From contig VICG01000006.1 of assembly GCA_008692225.1 (NCBI GenBank), positions 563,501 through 627,500 of the forward strand: a stretch of 64,000 bases of DNA, in the 5' to 3' direction. The DNA is from Monilinia fructicola. Lineage: Eukaryota; Ascomycota; Leotiomycetes; Helotiales; Sclerotiniaceae. Shown one piece after another: positions 34,200 to 43,139 of the stretch. The translations under genes and the position numbers were made by a program. Position 1 is the first letter of the stretch. Each line of letters begins with the position of its first letter. The notes beneath the pieces are model-generated. The model was given only the letters and a program-made list of their open reading frames with translations. It ran no database searches and was not told the DNA's origin.

Positions 34200-34249
34200 T
34201 AAGGTTACCTGACTTTCGGATGACTGATTATAAAGGTTACCAGGTATGT

Positions 34250-34276
34250 AGGTCGGATGGACGTCCATCTGAGCTC
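34250..34276 (+). repeat. left terminal inverted repeat core, 27 bp
   Basis: AGGTCGGATGGACGTCCATC followed by TGAGCTC. Its exact reverse complement is at 43067-43093. The core itself contains the palindrome GATGGACGTCCATC. Confidence 0.9.
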
Positions 34277-34600
34277 ATATGGACCTGTGGGGCATCACTT
34301 AAAAAAAAAAAGGTCAACCGCAAAACGTCGCGCAGGTCCACCCGACCTTTTGCCGAATTCATAACTTTGTGCAATATGGATCCACATCGTAGTTCTAAAC
34401 GTTTCGAAAACGTTTAGAAAACATTTAGATAGCATTATTATACAATTGATCCACTCCCAACCACCGTATTTATTTATCTTTTTTAAAACACGTTTATCAA
34501 ACGTTTAGAAAACATTTCGAAAACGTTTAAATAATGATTCTTATTCCTTTCATTTATAGATTTTTCCTTTCTTTCTTTCATTTATTGTTCTCTTTTCAAA

Positions 34601-37600
34601 ATGCATCCTATCACTTGGTTACGTCGTTCTTGTCTTGCTACAATACACGAATTAGGTATCACCCTACCAGAAGGAGAACATTTATATTCTAATTGGGATA
34701 CCGAATTAGTTGGAAGAAGAATTGTTGAGGATGAACTACCAGAATTATATCCTTTGGATGAAAATATTCAAGTAAGATTATTTGAACACACATTTTTAAC
34801 TCGTTTCTAAAACGTTTTCTAATCGTTATATAAATAGGAAGCAATAGATAATCTTCAAGAGAATCCAATATTTCTACTTTCAGATAGAGCACAAGAACCA
34901 TTAAGTGTTGAACAAATCAATTATGTGATTGATTGCCCATTATATCCCCCTACTTCAGAACGAGGAATTGGCAATTTAATCAATGTACATGAATTGACAC
35001 CTGAGCAAGCAGATAAAGTATGTTCAAAGGTATGTATATCCTAAATGTTTTCAAAACGTTTAGAAACCATTTAGAAAACGTTTCGAAAGCATTTTTTAAA
35101 GCATTTTTAAAGCACATTTTGTTAATAAATTATAATTAGATTCAATATTCAACACATACAAATCGATCACTTCACAGGAAAACTACCATTTCACATTGGA
35201 TGGGAGGTATTCAGGTTAAACGTACAATCAAAAAAATGCAGCGGAATAAATGCATGTCTTCATGCATCAAATTATATTTCTAGTTCGCATACTAGTTGGA
35301 CATCAAGCGATTGGGAAGACAAACGGATTCGAACACATTCTAGTCAACGTGTTTTTGCTGAGGAATATAATGCTGGTTTGGGACAAAAAGAAACATTAAC
35401 GTATGTATCATTATGAAAACGTTTTGAAAATATTTCGAAAAACGTTTAGAATACGTTTTTTATTACTATTTTCTAACTCATCCTCTTTAGAACTTATCAT
35501 ACAGTTAAAAAAAGCATTTTGAAAAGTATGGCTGTGGATTCTACAAAATTGATCCTAATACTGGGGAGACAATACTATGCGATGGAGTACCAGAAGTTCG
35601 ACATTTCAATACTACAGTAAGTTTAATCACATTCTAAACGTTTTAAAAACGTTTTCGAAGTGTGTTGAAGCTGATTTTTGATTAGAACTTCAATGGTGAT
35701 GCACGTTATTATATATGCTGCAATAAAATAACTAATAATAATGAATTCTTTCAACATTATTATCATACTATCAATCCAACAAGACCAATCAATTGGGAAT
35801 ATATGATGGATTTATTAACTTACGGATTTCACCCTAATCAACCATCTGAATGCTTTCAAGTATTTGGTACTCAAACACGTCGAAGTGATTGTGGTACGTC
35901 TTCAACTTCTACTTAACTCATTTTTAACTCATTTTTAACTCATTTTTAACTTATATTGAAAACGTTTTCAAAACGTTTTTAAAATCGTTTTCACATCGTT
36001 TTCAACTCGTTTTTGTATCTTATTTATTAATAGTTTTTTAGGTGTTCCTCATCATGATGGAAATCAACCATTGCAACGTATTGAATGCGATGTAACATTC
36101 AATATCATTGTTCCAATCGATCTTCAAGGACCACCCTTATATTCTGATCACTTCTCACGGTGAACATACACATGTGCCTCCACCACCATCCCGAAGTCCT
36201 GCTTTATTAACTGAATTAATTGTTGATCGAGTTAAAAACTTTATCAACTTTTGGACGTGGGTATTGTAAGTAATTTATATTTTATATTTATTTAACAAGA
36301 AAAACGAAAAATTAATGCAATTTGTAGGTGATATCATTGCAAGTGAAGGAATGAATCGACTCTGTCAAGAGTTGAATATCGAGCAGTTAATGAATGCACA
36401 TCCTGCATGGAATAACAAATCAAAAATTCAAGCAATCGCAATGCTGGAACAGATTGATAGGTATCCTTACGGTGTTGAATGGGCTGGTAAGTAATATATT
36501 CAAAACGTTTAATAAACGTTTTCTAAACGTTTTCTAAACGTTTTCAAATCTATTAATAACTAATATTATTAGGTGTATGGTATGATTATAGAGCTAATCA
36601 TTACAATAAATTCGGAACACAACAATACATTCGACGAATGTATAATTATGGTGATCGTCGAGAAATTCATTGTTTTTATTTGGATCAAGCATTATATTTG
36701 AAAAATCTCGATACTTTTCAAATAGATACCAGTTATAAACGTACAGCTGGCAAATGGCGTGAAGTCATTTTTTGCTCAATATATAGAGCAAGAAAACATT
36801 GATCAATGTATGTAGTATATTCACTTCGAAAATACTTTATAAATGTTTTTTGATTATATATTAACCATTTTATAGTAACTCAGCTTTCACGGGTATATAC
36901 CGACGTTGAAACTGCTGAGGGTTTCTACCAACTTTTCAAAAATTGGTATATCGATGTATTAATGAAGCATTGGAAAATGCTGATCAACCACCTCTTCACT
37001 TTCATCATATTCATGGGAATGGAATTAAAGCAATTGTGGTGGATATGTGTGCAAAACAAGCAAATGGTAAAGCAAATTTCATTTTCTAAACGTTTAGAAA
37101 ACGTTTTTTAAACGTTTAGAAAAACGTTTAATCAATATTCAACGAATTTTTAACTAATATATCAATAATGATTTAGGTTGGGGTTGTTTCTTAAGTGATA
37201 TTGATCCACAGCATCGTCCATGGCAATTTCACATTCAATCTACTATGATTTATTGCTTGGTACATTATCAAAGAGGAATTGATAATAGTATCATTGCAAA
37301 TGATGGTTATGCAGGTCTTCTAAAAGATATAAGTATTGCAAAATCAAAAAAACGATTGCTATGCATTATTAGAATGTGTTCGACAGGATTAGTAGGTTTT
37401 CACGTCTCTATCTTTAAACGTTTAGAAAACGTTTAGAAAACGTTTATTAACAGTTTTATTTTTAAGTCCAGATATGATGGGATGGTGCACTCATAAAGAA
37501 TGGGATTGGATTATTTCGGGTTTAAACGAGCAATTCTTTTTAGGGGATAAAGCAACATTTCGAAATTGCATTCGAAATACAAATGCAGTAGAGGCAAGCG

Positions 37601-38309
37601 GAGCTCAAACTAATCGTTATGGCAAAGCGTTATCATTAGCTATTTCGATCGAAAAGTAAGTGTTTTTTAAACGTTTTCAAAACGTTTTCTAAACGTTTTA
37701 CTATCAATCTAACAATTATTTACTAGAGGGCGAAAGCATGATCTTCGAATCAATTTTGGTGGTGGTCGAGATAATGCAATATTAGGGGTTACAAACTCAT
37801 GGCGAGGTCGTTCTGTGTATGATCGAATAAATGAAAGGCGAAAAAGAAGTTGTGAGTATTTTTAATCTAATGATAAACGTTTAATAAACGTTTAGAAAAC
37901 GTTTTCTAAACGTTTTCTAAACGTTTTCTAAATGATTTAATTCCATTCGCTAATAATTCATTTAGTATTAAAACAAAAGAAGAATCAACAATTTGCACAA
38001 GAAAAACAATCTGTTGTTATCTGACGATATTCCTGAAGAGCAACAGATTCATCATCAATCTTCTCAATTATCTAATTCTGATTATAATCATAGTAGTAGC
38101 GGCCGACCACCTAGAATAAGAAGATCACGTAGACAGCAATCTGTTCCAATACAAACAACAACAAAGCAATATAACTGCTACATTGGAAGAATCAGTCAGA
38201 CAAGCTGATTTAAGAATACAACTTGCAAATAAGGAATTGGAACTCAAAGAAAGACAAATAGAAATAGCACGAAGGGATCGAGAAATCAGGGAACTACAAT
38301 GTACATAAT
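34601..38309 (+). pseudogene. gene A: MULE-like transposase, frame-broken
   Basis: About a dozen exons starting at ATG 34601 (MHPITWLRRSCLATIHELG...). Recognisable parts: a HGEHTHVPPPP zinc-ligand-like motif (~36165) preceded by YILIT, as in fungal MULE-type transposases; a first catalytic-type Asp in LDTFQIDTSYKRTAGKW (~36715); RVYTDVETAEGFYQLF; IVVDMCAKQANGWG with a second Asp; VHYQRGI; and a C-terminal coiled coil (ELELKERQIEIARRDREI) ending at ~38309. It would cut and paste the element. Frame changes are needed near 36137, 36770 (T-run), 36940 (A-run), 38015 and 38170, and intron joins near 35140 and 35510 do not keep phase. So this copy is probably inactive, unless the indels are sequencing errors. 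Superfamily assignment is by motif style only. Confidence 0.7.
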
Positions 38310-38589
38310 ATCACTTCAAAAGCAATGATAAATTCCTAGTAGTTTATTTTATTTTAAGAGCAATTCATTTATCAAACGTTTTCGAATCGTTTTCTAAACG
38401 TTTAGAAAGCAATTTCGAATAGCAATGCGATCTATTTTTCAACCTAAATTCTACAAAAGTGATTGATATAATATTAGAACATAACGATCAATATATAAAT
38501 GATTGAAAATAATAATATCAATTATTTAATTATCACTATCACCTACACTACTAGTAGTGTTAACACTACTACTACCACTACCACTACCA

Positions 38590-40494
38590 CTAAATACTAA
38601 TAACACTAACATTACCACTACCACTACCAGCATCAGAATCAACATCAGTATCAGTATTATTCGTTTTATGAAATCGAATCATATTCCCATTCTCATCAAC
38701 AGGCTGTTTAAACATTCTAATATCATCGCATGCATCAGATACGAAATATGGTGCATGCCAATTAGGACATGGACATTCTATTGAAAAACATTTAGTAAAC
38801 GTTTTGAAAATGCTTTCAAAACGTTTTCAATTTGAGTAGATATCAACTTACTTTTGCAAACCTTCCAGCTTTTCCCTGATTTATATTTAAGATTGCATCC
38901 TGATGGTCTTGATGAACAATTCATACAACATTTCGAGCTCCTTTTAAGCATTTTTAACATTTCAGTAACGTTGGGCAAATGATTATAATATGGTAGATCG
39001 AATGGTCCACCAATTGCATTCCATCTCATCTTTGTATCTAATCGAGGCCTAGTATTTGGCTAATAATAATAAAGAAACGTATTAGAATGAATTCTTTCAT
39101 CGAGCAAACTGAGGGAAAAATAAACGGAACAATCTTACAGTAAGTTTAGGAGGAGTGGGAGGATGTGCACTATCGATATCATTACAAATATCAATAAATT
39201 TTTGTGTAGATGGATTGATTCGTTGTTTTTTCTTTTTTGTATAAGTTAGCATAAACCTTTTTTAAACGTTTCTTAAACGTTTCTTAAACGTTTTTTAAAC
39301 GTTTTTTAAACGTTTTCAAAAGGTTTTGAATAGAATTCTTACTAGAATAGAACTTTCAGTAGTTGTTATTTCATGATTATTAGTACTATTCTCTTCAGAG
39401 GAATCATTTTTTCGCTTTTCTAACGTTTTGCTAGTAGGATTCGGAGCAGATTGAGGTAGTTGTGTTGTTGAATGTGGTGTTAATGTAGAGGAAGTAGTAG
39501 TAGTTGAAGGGTCCGTAGGCTGTGATGTCAAAACGTTTTCAGAACGTTTTGAAGTCGATTCCGAATCGATTTCTGAGGGGATTGGAATGTTATCTTGAGG
39601 GGATGCAGGAATCTCTGGTTCTGGTGGTCCTGATTCTTGAGTTTGATCTCCACTAGAAAGTATTGGAGATTCAGCGCGTTGTTGTTGTCGACTTTTATTC
39701 AATTTACGTCGAGTAGGAGGTTTCCTCTTCGAGCTTTTTGAGTGTAGAGAATTCTATTTTAATGATATCAGAAAATGTATGAAAAATGATTCGAAAACGT
39801 TTTCTAATCGTTTTGAAAACGTTTTCTAATCGTTTTGAATCGTTTTGAAAACATTTTCGGATTGTTTTTTTAATAGATACCTTCGACGATTCGTTGATTG
39901 AATCATTAGTTTCAATATTTTTATCTTTCTCTTTGGTGTTTTGTTGAATATAAGCATATACAGCTTTGAAATGCTTATATGCTGCATTTTTCATTGCCTA
40001 TTAAGAATAAAATTAAAAAAAGGTTGATTATAATTATTTATCAATAATCAACATACCGTATTTGGTACACCTTGAACGGAATGAAAGTGAACTTCCTCTT
40101 TATGAACTTTACGCAAATGTAGAAGTAAAGCATTAGTTTGTTTATATTGATGCTGATCAAGAATTAGCTATAGAACGAATCAAAAACGATTTGGAAATGT
40201 TTTGAAAACGATTAGAAAACGATTGAAAAACGTTTAGAAAATGAATTCGAAATGAATTGAGTTACATACATTTGTAGTGCACAATTCTCCATCTTCATCA
40301 ATTTTGAACTCGACAAAACCTTTCCCCAGGGTAGATTTTAACACATTTTGATTTATTGGTACATTGCGAATCCTATAAATATATTAATAATGAATTGATT
40401 TAGAATAGGGTAACATTACATTGCATTTGATCTCTTCATATGGAGGACAATGATTTGGTCGTTGAGAAAAAGACGAAGGGTAAGTAGTAGACAT
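38590..40494 (-). CDS. gene C: element-encoded zinc-finger-like accessory protein
   Basis: About eight exons read without a frame break from ATG 40494 (MSTTYPSSFSQRPNHC) to TAG at 38590. Intron 1 needs a weak GTTACC donor to keep phase. Order: a Cys pair (NHCPPYEEIKC), GFVEFKIDEDGELC, then a C2H2-like half with LLLHLRKVHKEEVHFH, a helical segment (AAYKHFKAVYAYIQQN), a basic then Ser/Thr/Pro-rich linker, and a Cys-rich C-terminus (CCMNCSSRPSGC...CKKCPCPNW...C) with an Asp/Gly/Ser tail. The basic and Cys/His-rich make-up suggests a nuclear DNA- or RNA-binding protein. It parallels gene B in order of parts, so they look like duplicates. Function unknown. Regulation of the transposon is a guess. 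Confidence 0.65.
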
Positions 40495-41200
40495 AATGTA
40501 TTTTTGATTTAAACGATTGAAAGTAAAGTTAGAAGAGAGAATGAACGATTCACGATGTGGAAATACTATAGTTTTAATACAAAAATAAAGTGGATATCTT
40601 AGCGAAAGGATAAACGTATATCCATGACCGAAGAATGTAAATTAAACAATGGAGATTGAGGAGATATGTAGAAAGAAAACATTTAGAAAACGTTTATTAA
40701 ACGATTCGAAAACGTTTATGAAATGTTTTAGAAAATGATTAGAGAACGTTTTTTAAATAATTTGTAGGTATATTGTTTGTCTTTTTTTTATATTATGATC
40801 GATGATTTCTAGTGTTTGTATGGTGCTATATAAGTGTTTATATAGTACTCTATAAGTATTGTTTTGATATTTTATAAGTGTTTGATTAATATTTTTTAAT
40901 ACTTCTTTATAATAAGATTGGTGAATTTAACCTGAGATCTTTATTTGTATACATACCAAAATGACTATTAAATAAAATTCTTTCAATACCATATATTTTT
41001 TATTATTTATGCTACCTAGTTGAAGAATTCGTAAAGGTCGTTAATATGAAAAAATTGCTTGTGTAAACGTTTTCTAAACGTTTTGAAAACGTTTATAAAA
41101 TGATTAGAAAACGTTTAAAAAACATTTCGGATTCAAGTTGAAAATATTTCGAAGTAACAAAAAGAATATTTCCCAAATATAAAGAAAATCCCAATCTAAC

Positions 41201-42487
41201 TCATTCAACACTACCCTCTTCATCATCGTTTTCATCTTCATCTTCAACATCGTCGACTCTATTTGAAGGTTTCCTATAATTCAAAAGAATTATACAACCT
41301 CCATTGTTAGTCCAATCCTGTGCACTAACATCAGGACAACGATCACGCGAAGCAGCAACACAATGATCACATTTTTGATTGGGTTTAAACCCACAGCCAG
41401 CTCGCATTCGCGTTACGTTGGGCTAAACAATTGATAAACAATTAGCAAACGTTAGTTAACTTATCTCGAAAACGTTTTAAACTTACTCTCATAGCTCCCT
41501 TATACTTGCGTACAGGGCAATCTTTCACCACACGAGAAGGTCCAGCAGATGCAATTTGCTCTGCTTCCTCTCGAACGCGTGCTTGCTCGTGATTGCGTTC
41601 ATCACGTTTTCTCTTTCGCAATTTCTTTGATGGAGAGAAATGACTCTGCATATAAAATTAATAAATGTTGGAAAGTGAAAACGTTTTCTAAACGTTTAGA
41701 AAACGTTTTCAAAAATGATTTATAAAATGATTAGAAAACGTTTAAAAAATGATTAGAAAACGTTTATAAAATGCTTTCAAAAAGGTTGAAAAATAATAGT
41801 GAGATCACGTACGTTTGAGAGATCAATCTATCATCAGTTTCTTGTCTTACTTCACCAATTGACTTCTCGTACTCAAGGTGAGCACGATAGCATTGGGCGA
41901 ATGCTTCCCGAGCGACTGCTTGATCTTCCTGCAAACGTTTTAAAAACGATTAGAAAACGTTTTCAAACGAATAGAAAGAACAATACTAAAGTTATTTAAA
42001 AAATTATTTAATAATGAGTACTGACCATTCTCGTACTACCCTTTTTCCCCTTATCAAACGAAAGATCCGAATGTTTTTGCTTCAAATGAAGACGAAGATT
42101 GTTGGTAGCATTGTATTTGATCTAAATGATTTTGAAAACGTTTAGAAAACGTTTAGAAAACGTTTATATTCAATGATAACATACGAGTTTTGGACAAATT
42201 TCATTGCGTGGACCCCAAGGTGCACGACAAAATATTTCTCCCGCAGGCACTTGATAAACATCATTCTAAGATAATTAATAAATGTTAATAAATATACTAC
42301 AAAAAGCGATTTGAAAACGTTTAATAAACGTTTATTAAACGTTTTGAGATTGAATAACACTTACTTCATCACACTTCCACAAAGAACATCCAGAGGGACG
42401 AGGGTTACTACGAAGATATGCGTCTGCTTGTTGATCCTTCGTTGAATAAACAAGAGTATTCACAGTTGCATTAGGTCCAGATGCCAT
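41201..42487 (-). CDS. gene B: element-encoded zinc-finger-like accessory protein
   Basis: Six exons with no frame break, from ATG 42487 (MASGPNATVNTLVYSTKDQQ) to the stop at 41201. The intron after the fourth exon keeps phase if GTGATC is the donor. Parts in order: CSLWKC, then FCRAPWGPRNEICPKL...LRLHLKQKH, a C/H-rich finger resembling BED or C2H2 types, a helical EDQAVAREAFAQCYRAHLEY, a strongly basic SKKLRKRKRDER (likely nuclear import signal), and a Cys-rich C-terminus CGFKPNQKCDHC...DRC with the acidic tail DEDENDDEEG. Every intron carries AAACGTTT motifs. Same plan as gene C. I know no named family. DNA binding is inference. Confidence 0.65.
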
Positions 42488-43066
42488 ATCGAAAAAAAAA
42501 TCAAGTATCTATAAGTGAGAATTTAAATCGATTTGTAAACGTTTTCTAAACGTTTTGAAAACGTTTAGTAAGTGATTTCTAAATGAATTGATAGAGCACT
42601 GATGGGGAGATCGAAAAAAAAGTTGTAAGCGAGAGTAGTTGTAGTTGGAATAAAAATTCGGTGGGGAAATATCAGATAATATAAACGAAAAAAAGCAATA
42701 CTCGAATTGATACAACGTTAATTATCAAGGTAGATAAATGATTCAATTGAGGTTGCTTGCAATATTAATTAATTCTCGAATCTCTTTTTTTGCTTTATAG
42801 ATGACATATAACATTTGAGAATTAGGTGGGCATAAACGTTTTGGAAACGTTTTTTGAAAACGTTTATTAAACGTTTATTAAACGTTTCCATACGGCTATG
42901 ATTAGAATCAATTGAAGAGGTACGATCAATTCAATCACGCAAATCTACTGTTCAATGAGATCGACGATCGGACGTTCTGCATAAATTATGAAGAGGTTGC
43001 GGACCCATTTCGCAAAAGGTCAGCCGCGCCCCACTAGTCCACCCGACGTTTTTCCGAGTACCACGG

Positions 43067-43093
43067 GAGCTCAGATGGACGTCCATCCGACCT
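43067..43093 (-). repeat. right terminal inverted repeat core, 27 bp
   Basis: Perfect reverse complement of 34250-34276. Further inside, GACCTTTTGCGAAATGG (read on minus) matches GACCTTTTGCCGAATTC of the left side. Confidence 0.9.
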
Positions 43094-43139
43094 GTCGACT
43101 CAGGTTACCTAGGCATGTAACCCTACTCATTTTCTTCCA

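Follow-up and report, generated by a model that had tools for sequence, protein, structure and literature searches.

The window analysed here, a stretch of 64,000 nucleotides on contig C6 of the Monilinia fructicola genome (44.03 Mb in 20 contigs, the genome searched throughout), contains a mobile element of 8,860 bp. The element holds a predicted transposase gene (A) and two genes for predicted zinc-finger proteins (B and C), and its non-coding DNA carries arrays of the palindromic 8-mer AAACGTTT. An earlier note on this DNA had these palindromes filling nearly all introns and spacers. This held up, with the element refined to the limits in Table 1, but the arrays proved not to be an intron property (see below). 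The termini and the 8-bp target-site duplication (TSD) were set by comparison with nine other full-length copies, and a perfect 27-nt inverted repeat sits 8 bp inside each end. Including the window copy, the genome has ten full-length copies. Identity to the window copy is 99% for six of them, and 96%, 86% and 83% for the copies designated C4, C8 and C16. The TSD is exact in eight of the ten; it has one mismatch in copy C8 and is out of register in copy C5a.

AAACGTTT occurs 73 times in the element (34388-42890) and not once in the other 55 kb of the window. Dinucleotide shuffles of the element (n = 100) gave a mean of 0.82 and a maximum of 3 occurrences, and no other palindromic 8-mer is present in it more than five times. 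For the host sequence (55,070 bases), first-order simulation predicts 1.25 occurrences and none was observed, so it is the element that is unusual and not the host part of the window. All but one of the motifs (72 of 73) are non-coding, 52 being intronic and 20 located in spacers; the sole exonic one begins at 39531 in gene B. For this count, the public proteins P0001 and P0002 were followed at two splice sites. Nineteen of the 24 introns carry the motif, and the five without it measure 47-68 bp. The concentration in introns and spacers and the scarcity in exons had been noticed earlier. So had the spacing, which a periodicity check bears out: of the 444 successive steps of up to 40 bp in the ten full copies, 301 measure exactly 11 bp, with 96 of 22 bp and 20 of 12 bp, followed by 23 bp and 33 bp (10 each) and other lengths (7). 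The 73 motifs, a density of 8.2 per kb, form 27 blocks along the entire element, with a median block spacing of 306 bp in the ten copies. As the note had also stated, the arrays stop near the inverted ends, leaving the first 155 bp and the last 214 bp motif-free. In the window copy and six close copies, about 155 bp separate the left end from the first motif, and 212-214 bp the last motif from the right end. Six full copies that are 99% identical to one another have 76-78 motifs each.

Table 1. The mobile element in the window, its genes and its motif arrays (positions of the whole window; array positions are from the count of AAACGTTT, with no strand assigned)
Feature	Position	Strand	Basis or remark
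Whole mobile element, 8,860 bp	34242..43101	+	Termini and TSD by comparison with nine other full-length copies
Left TSD AGGTTACC	34234..34241	+	Same sequence as 43102-43109
Right TSD AGGTTACC	43102..43109	+	Same sequence as 34234-34241
27-nt inverted repeat, left arm	34250..34276	+	Perfect reverse complement of 43067-43093; few changes in other copies
27-nt inverted repeat, right arm	43067..43093	-	Pairs with 34250-34276; few changes in other copies
Gene A, predicted transposase	34601..38308	+	Intron model on sibling copies, 13 model exons; several frame breaks in window copy
Gene B, predicted Cys/His zinc-finger protein	38526..40494	-	Intron model, 8 model exons; public EYC84_000141
Gene C, predicted BED-like zinc-finger protein related to B	41201..42487	-	Intron model, 6 model exons; public EYC84_000142
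Left subterminal arrays	34397..34528		4 motifs
Gene A intron 1	34810..34817		1 motif
Gene A intron	35054..35083		2 motifs
Gene A intron	35417..35447		2 motifs
Gene A intron	35636..35654		2 motifs
Gene A intron	35960..35978		2 motifs
Gene A intron	36503..36543		4 motifs, 11-bp steps
Gene A intron	37088..37129		4 motifs
Gene A intron	37416..37445		3 motifs
Gene A intron	37669..37698		3 motifs
Gene A last intron	37875..37926		5 motifs, 11-bp steps
A/B spacer	38374..38403		2 motifs
Gene B intron	38797..38826		2 motifs
Gene B intron	39264..39315		5 motifs, 11-bp steps
Gene B exon	39531..39538		Sole exonic motif
Gene B intron	39795..39824		2 motifs
Gene B intron	40228..40235		1 motif
B/C spacer, two arrays	40688..41116		2 + 4 motifs
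Gene C intron	41470..41477		1 motif
Gene C intron	41679..41765		5 motifs
Gene C intron	41933..41962		2 motifs
Gene C intron	42136..42165		3 motifs
Gene C intron	42315..42344		3 motifs
Spacer upstream of gene C	42537..42566		3 motifs
Right subterminal array	42834..42887		5 motifs

Genome-wide, AAACGTTT was found 2,050 times and its reversal TTTGCAAA 1,506 times. The ten full copies account for 706 of these sites and 29 short elements, described below, for 308, so that half of the sites lie in about 118 kb; approximately 1,036 are outside the counted elements. The restriction is much sharper for pairs of motifs exactly 11 bp apart. There are 481 of them, 301 in the ten copies, 148 in the 29 short elements, 3 at an unpaired short locus and 29 unlocated. 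The 39 elements, which make up about 0.27% of the genome DNA, thus contain 449 of the 481 pairs. The corresponding pair of the reversed control was not found in the genome. In stretches of 15-18 kb around the ten copies there is, outside the elements, one site beside copy C7 and 12 beside copy C11, the latter in a short element (L056, C11:101274-102150) separated by about 90 bp from the full-length copy's right end.

At least 29 complete short elements of 765-2,219 bp share the ends of the full element. A left-end query (401 bases, which include four motifs) gave at least 99 matches, with 40 of 68 candidates scored, and a right-end query (which includes only the last three bases of one motif) at least 41 matches, with 40 of 56 candidates scored. 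Thirty-two loci were taken, two of which (L054, L055) were picked from the motif listing; 29 have both ends, L045, L046 and L069 are unpaired, and five further right-end matches are left out of the count. The TSD is exact in 19 of the 29 elements, has one mismatch in three and is not exact in seven. The longest open frame is at most 63 aa in 28 of them and 116 aa in L068, and no match to gene A or gene C sequence was detected in any. Being short and gene-less, with common termini and TSDs, they are non-autonomous elements of the miniature inverted-repeat transposable element (MITE) type.

These short elements, which are new here, have kept the arrays without exception (29 of 29). Together they hold 308 palindromes, 5-21 per element, compared to 3.6 expected by shuffling. 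Motif density is 8.5-14.8 per kb in 27 elements and 3.6 and 5.0 in the other two. The left end is followed by the first motif at a distance of 161-203 bp, and the stretch between the last motif and the right end measures 159-187 bp. Two blocks are present in 19 elements, three in nine and five in one of 1.8 kb. Block number grows with length (rho 0.83, among elements that are related), and the median gap between blocks is 399 bp; in three-block elements the gaps are 275-436 bp, save one of 1.47 kb in L068. The 29 cannot be counted as independent cases, because they are related and partly near-identical (L061 and L064, 99.6%). Still, due to their lack of genes, the arrays have to be regarded as a property of the mobile unit and not of introns or splicing. 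A splicing signal was thus rejected: elements without any of the family's genes carry arrays, 27 of 29 of them denser than the full element. The earlier note had argued that splicing alone could not explain the motif, since host introns in the window lack it.

The left ends of the short elements (L045-L076) suggest that they descend from a copy that was hit by repeat-induced point mutation (RIP) and later multiplied: 314 of 519 differences from the autonomous end are C>T or G>A. Outside the cores G+C is 9% in their interiors versus 25% in the non-coding DNA of the window copy. Intact cores number 308, against 85 with a single C>T or G>A. This excess may reflect selection or re-expansion of intact cores in elements that went on moving. 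Clustering by interior similarity did not split the short elements; since AT-rich and motif sequence drove the grouping, it is uninformative on independent origins. Upon inspection, two elements stood out. L068 (2,219 bp) has a motif-free stretch of 1.47 kb with about 30% G+C and the 116-aa open frame, and may hold captured or inserted DNA; L053 (1,822 bp) has five motif blocks and a second partial right-end match inside, as if two elements had fused.

The catalytic half of gene A is 96% identical to the public protein P0001/MFRU_038g00010. By eye gene A contains residues in the order D...D...C-x2-H...E, an order known from MULEs, but there is no match of P0001 to a Pfam transposase family, including MULE (PF10551) and hAT (hmmscan, E<=10). 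PF10551 also failed to match the gene A pieces at E<=1, and it had no match in a six-frame search of the genome, a weaker test since introns are read as coding. Membership in the MULEs, to which the VANDAL elements of the earlier note's comparison belong, was therefore not confirmed. The frame breaks of gene A in the window fall at homopolymers, and other copies are broken at other places, so that both assembly error and decay could be the cause. The C-terminus of the protein (38120-38308; P0001 435-485) is predicted as a long helix, the main confident part of the model and likely a coiled coil.

No candidate genes for DNA binding other than B and C were seen in the element. A Cys/His finger-like segment is common to both (27% over 130 aa between P0002 and B, at E 1e-4 for that one comparison), and gene C has a sub-threshold match to zf-BED (12.8 bits, Pfam cut-off 20.6 bits). 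All genome-wide matches to gene C lie inside the ten full copies. In the protein database, which was searched by shared 5-residue words, the transposase half had one match, C four and B three, all of them M. fructicola hypothetical proteins (EYC84_ and MFRU_ tags). Because such a search returned proteins of this species only, the family looks isolated; a second related family was not found in the M. fructicola genome. A sequence search of the PDB gave nothing for P0001 and only four chance-level matches to ribosomal proteins for P0002. The public gene models of the element are fragmented or fused; P0003, for example, joins C and B.

Taken together, we see about an even chance (probability roughly 0.5) that the AAACGTTT arrays are landing pads for the predicted finger proteins B and C. 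A dimeric protein encoded by B and/or C would read the palindrome, and neighbouring dimers, 11 bp apart, would occupy one face of the DNA helix. The protein would coat every copy and keep it in an accessible, mobilisable state, a VANC-like role that would go beyond the assembly of a transposition complex. Short gene-less elements would use the same protein by keeping the arrays. A palindromic site is what a dimer would be expected to read, and a role of the arrays in cis is supported by the gene-less elements, with 308 sites against the 3.6 expected.

For the function of the arrays we relied on a comparison with VANDAL21/VANC21 and VANDAL6/VANC6 of Arabidopsis, as described in the passages cited (Hosaka et al. 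2017, PMC5735166; Sasaki et al. 2023, PMC10398659). There, VANC proteins target introns, intergenic and terminal non-coding regions, and hypomethylation spreads across the whole element. Like these, the fungal element is a multi-gene DNA transposon with a tandem short motif in introns, spacers and terminal non-coding DNA, motif-free coding parts and accessory proteins encoded beside the transposase. Unlike them, it repeats an 8-bp CpG palindrome in 11-bp steps, where the plant elements have YAGTATTAY or AGTTGTCC/AGTTGTAC; it also has two finger-like genes that are related to each other, and short elements without genes that keep the arrays. The likeness to VANC targets drawn in the earlier note is thus borne out for the layout, which is non-coding, tandem, element-wide and absent from the host DNA of the window (PMC5735166). 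Due to this match anti-silencing is the favoured function, and a plausible one. It is likewise plausible from the motif distribution that the system works like VANDAL/VANC; membership is unproven. No VANC homologue was among the database matches of B and C, in a search that needs shared 5-residue words and included no direct comparison with VANC sequences.

Other systems share single traits with the element. The 8-bp TSD fits both the 8-11 bp range of MULEs and the value of hAT elements, which have 8-bp TSDs, and the 27-nt inverted repeat is far below the hundreds of bp that are usual for terminal inverted repeats (TIRs) of MULEs (PMC6446971, in the part cited). Mutyl, a yeast MULE with a second open reading frame (ORF), mutB, is likewise a DNA transposon of a fungus, in which an accessory gene with a reported DNA-binding role accompanies the transposase. 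It differs in its 9-10 bp TSDs, 22-bp TIRs and single accessory ORF, with the orientation given both ways, and in the absence of motif arrays from the passages on it (PMC6446971). Among fungal DNA transposons, some carry a TET/JBP dioxygenase, according to the passage cited (PMC12730594). They resemble the element in having an accessory gene that possibly acts on epigenetic marks, and differ in the domain, which Pfam did not detect in A, B or C. A published description of the element was not found by title or the start of the abstract, and among the matches listed for papers containing AAACGTTT none was on a fungal transposon by title.

The alternative that survives best is that the arrays are only subterminal sites for assembling the transposition complex, the internal arrays being surplus. 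Subterminal repeats are reported for the hAT system Ac/Ds (PMC3260210) and subterminal binding by BED domains for Hermes (PMC10368747), in the parts cited. The element is like hAT in its 8-bp TSD, its BED-like finger and subterminal repeats kept by non-autonomous derivatives; all 29 short elements have an array at a near-fixed distance from each end, close to that at the autonomous ends. It is unlike hAT in that the repeats span the whole length, the presumed transposase and the fingers are encoded by different genes and there is no hAT Pfam match. In maize Ac, the subterminal motif is AAACGG. With 27 blocks over the full element, motifs in 19 of 24 introns and additional internal blocks in longer short elements, we consider end recognition alone unlikely. 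Because of these internal blocks, coating of the element by B and/or C is favoured over it.

A host DNA-binding or chromatin factor could also bind AAACGTTT and be exploited by the element for nucleosome exclusion, replication or transcription. The roughly 1,036 sites outside counted elements make a host site possible, but the tandem 11-bp pairs are nearly confined to the family and do not occur in the host DNA of the window, and we regard this explanation as quite improbable. Arrays upstream of both A and C and in the B/C spacer would suit an autoregulation of the three genes, which the earlier note had offered beside anti-silencing. With most motifs intronic (52 of 73, against 20 in spacers) and arrays kept in elements without genes, there is little to be said for it.

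If the arrays had expanded neutrally by slippage, in DNA without coding constraint, this would account for their turnover between C14 and the window copy, where the share of gaps is 5.4% for core positions and 6.5% for linker positions versus 0.4% for other non-coding positions. However, slippage would have to produce an identical 8-mer in 27 distinct blocks whose linkers vary, and none in the window's host DNA. In addition, at the 459 non-CpG core positions C8 and C16 show no change relative to C14, a weak argument since RIP alters only C and G. We think slippage very unlikely. That AAACGTTT is merely a residue of RIP in AT-rich DNA is hardly credible: A/T-flanked CpGs are less RIP-mutated and the short elements are very AT-rich, but RIP does not produce 11-bp arrays, and the six close copies, which have no C>T/G>A excess of the type in C4, C8 and C16, carry 76-78 sites each. 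Phased A-tracts might also curve the DNA intrinsically, but this was dismissed on argument: with half a turn between AAA and TTT, their effects should cancel out.

Several results weigh against B and C reading the arrays and keeping the element open. Five of 24 introns have no motif. The zinc-finger assignments of B and C are weak, and single-sequence structure models of P0001 and P0002 were uninformative, with a mean predicted local distance difference test score of 40.1 and 41.8. Array-free relatives may have been missed, because the left-end query holds four motifs and five right-end matches were left out; L046, of which only the left end was found, has no motif. Copies C4, C8 and C16 are RIP-mutated, as seen from the C>T/G>A share of their differences from C14 (298/355, 1233/1278 and 1458/1519) and the preference for CpA. 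In exons of C8 and C16, 54 and 66% of CpA and 35 and 40% of CpC are mutated. These differences are the result of RIP, and the idea that C8 and C16 are old lineages was rejected. Three of ten full copies were thus mutated although they bear arrays, and the arrays did not prevent RIP.

The core CpGs themselves were mutated less often (32/154 in C8 and 36/154 in C16, or 21-23%) than other CpGs (200/462 and 234/462, or 43-51%; p 4.7e-7 and 2.3e-9), but the gap shrinks when flanks are matched. Compared to CpGs flanked by three A/T on both sides (27/86, 31/86), p is 0.085 and 0.051, to AAACG outside cores (13/40, 9/40) 0.14 and 1.0, and to CGTTT (8/38, 17/38) 1.0 and 0.014. Four-letter contexts such as ACGT or CGTT do differ (p 2e-7 to 1e-3), with ACGT at 38/66 and 34/66 (p 2e-7 and 7e-5). 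With the closest flank matches, the motif's own protection from RIP looks weak or absent. Regional protection spreading from the arrays was not seen in non-coding CpA of C8 and C16 either: within 20 bp of arrays 47/101 (C8) and 62/101 (C16) were mutated, versus 15/36 and 19/36 beyond 150 bp. The anti-silencing proposed in the earlier note thus receives no direct support from these copies. RIP acts in the sexual phase, so that the result says little about vegetative silencing.

A wider reading is that the element is a case of convergent self-recognition, in which two BED-like finger proteins read an 8-bp palindrome spaced by one helical turn and hold the element open against silencing, and gene-less elements free-ride by means of an array every few hundred bp. 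We put this forward tentatively, as somewhat doubtful. To our knowledge, element-wide motif arrays read by the element's own protein have been worked out only for the Arabidopsis VANDALs. If true, ours would be the first anti-silencing code of this kind known outside plants, and its presence in a fungus, with other genes, would mean that the discrimination between transposon self and host has evolved convergently. The gene-less elements are little beyond two ends and arrays, so the cis question can be tested directly with them, and a genome with RIP in which close copies exist beside RIP-mutated ones offers natural controls.

The three full copies mutated to differing degrees, beside seven unmutated ones, are also a ready series for studying the context of RIP. 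RIP has been reported, along with a small number of active transposons, for an M. fructicola assembly that bears EYC84 tags (PMC8959702, in the part cited), and MULE, Mutator and MITE do not occur as whole words in the main text of that paper. In the window itself, G+C falls to 11-22% over about 13 kb between 4000 and 18000, like the RIP-affected regions reported for this species.

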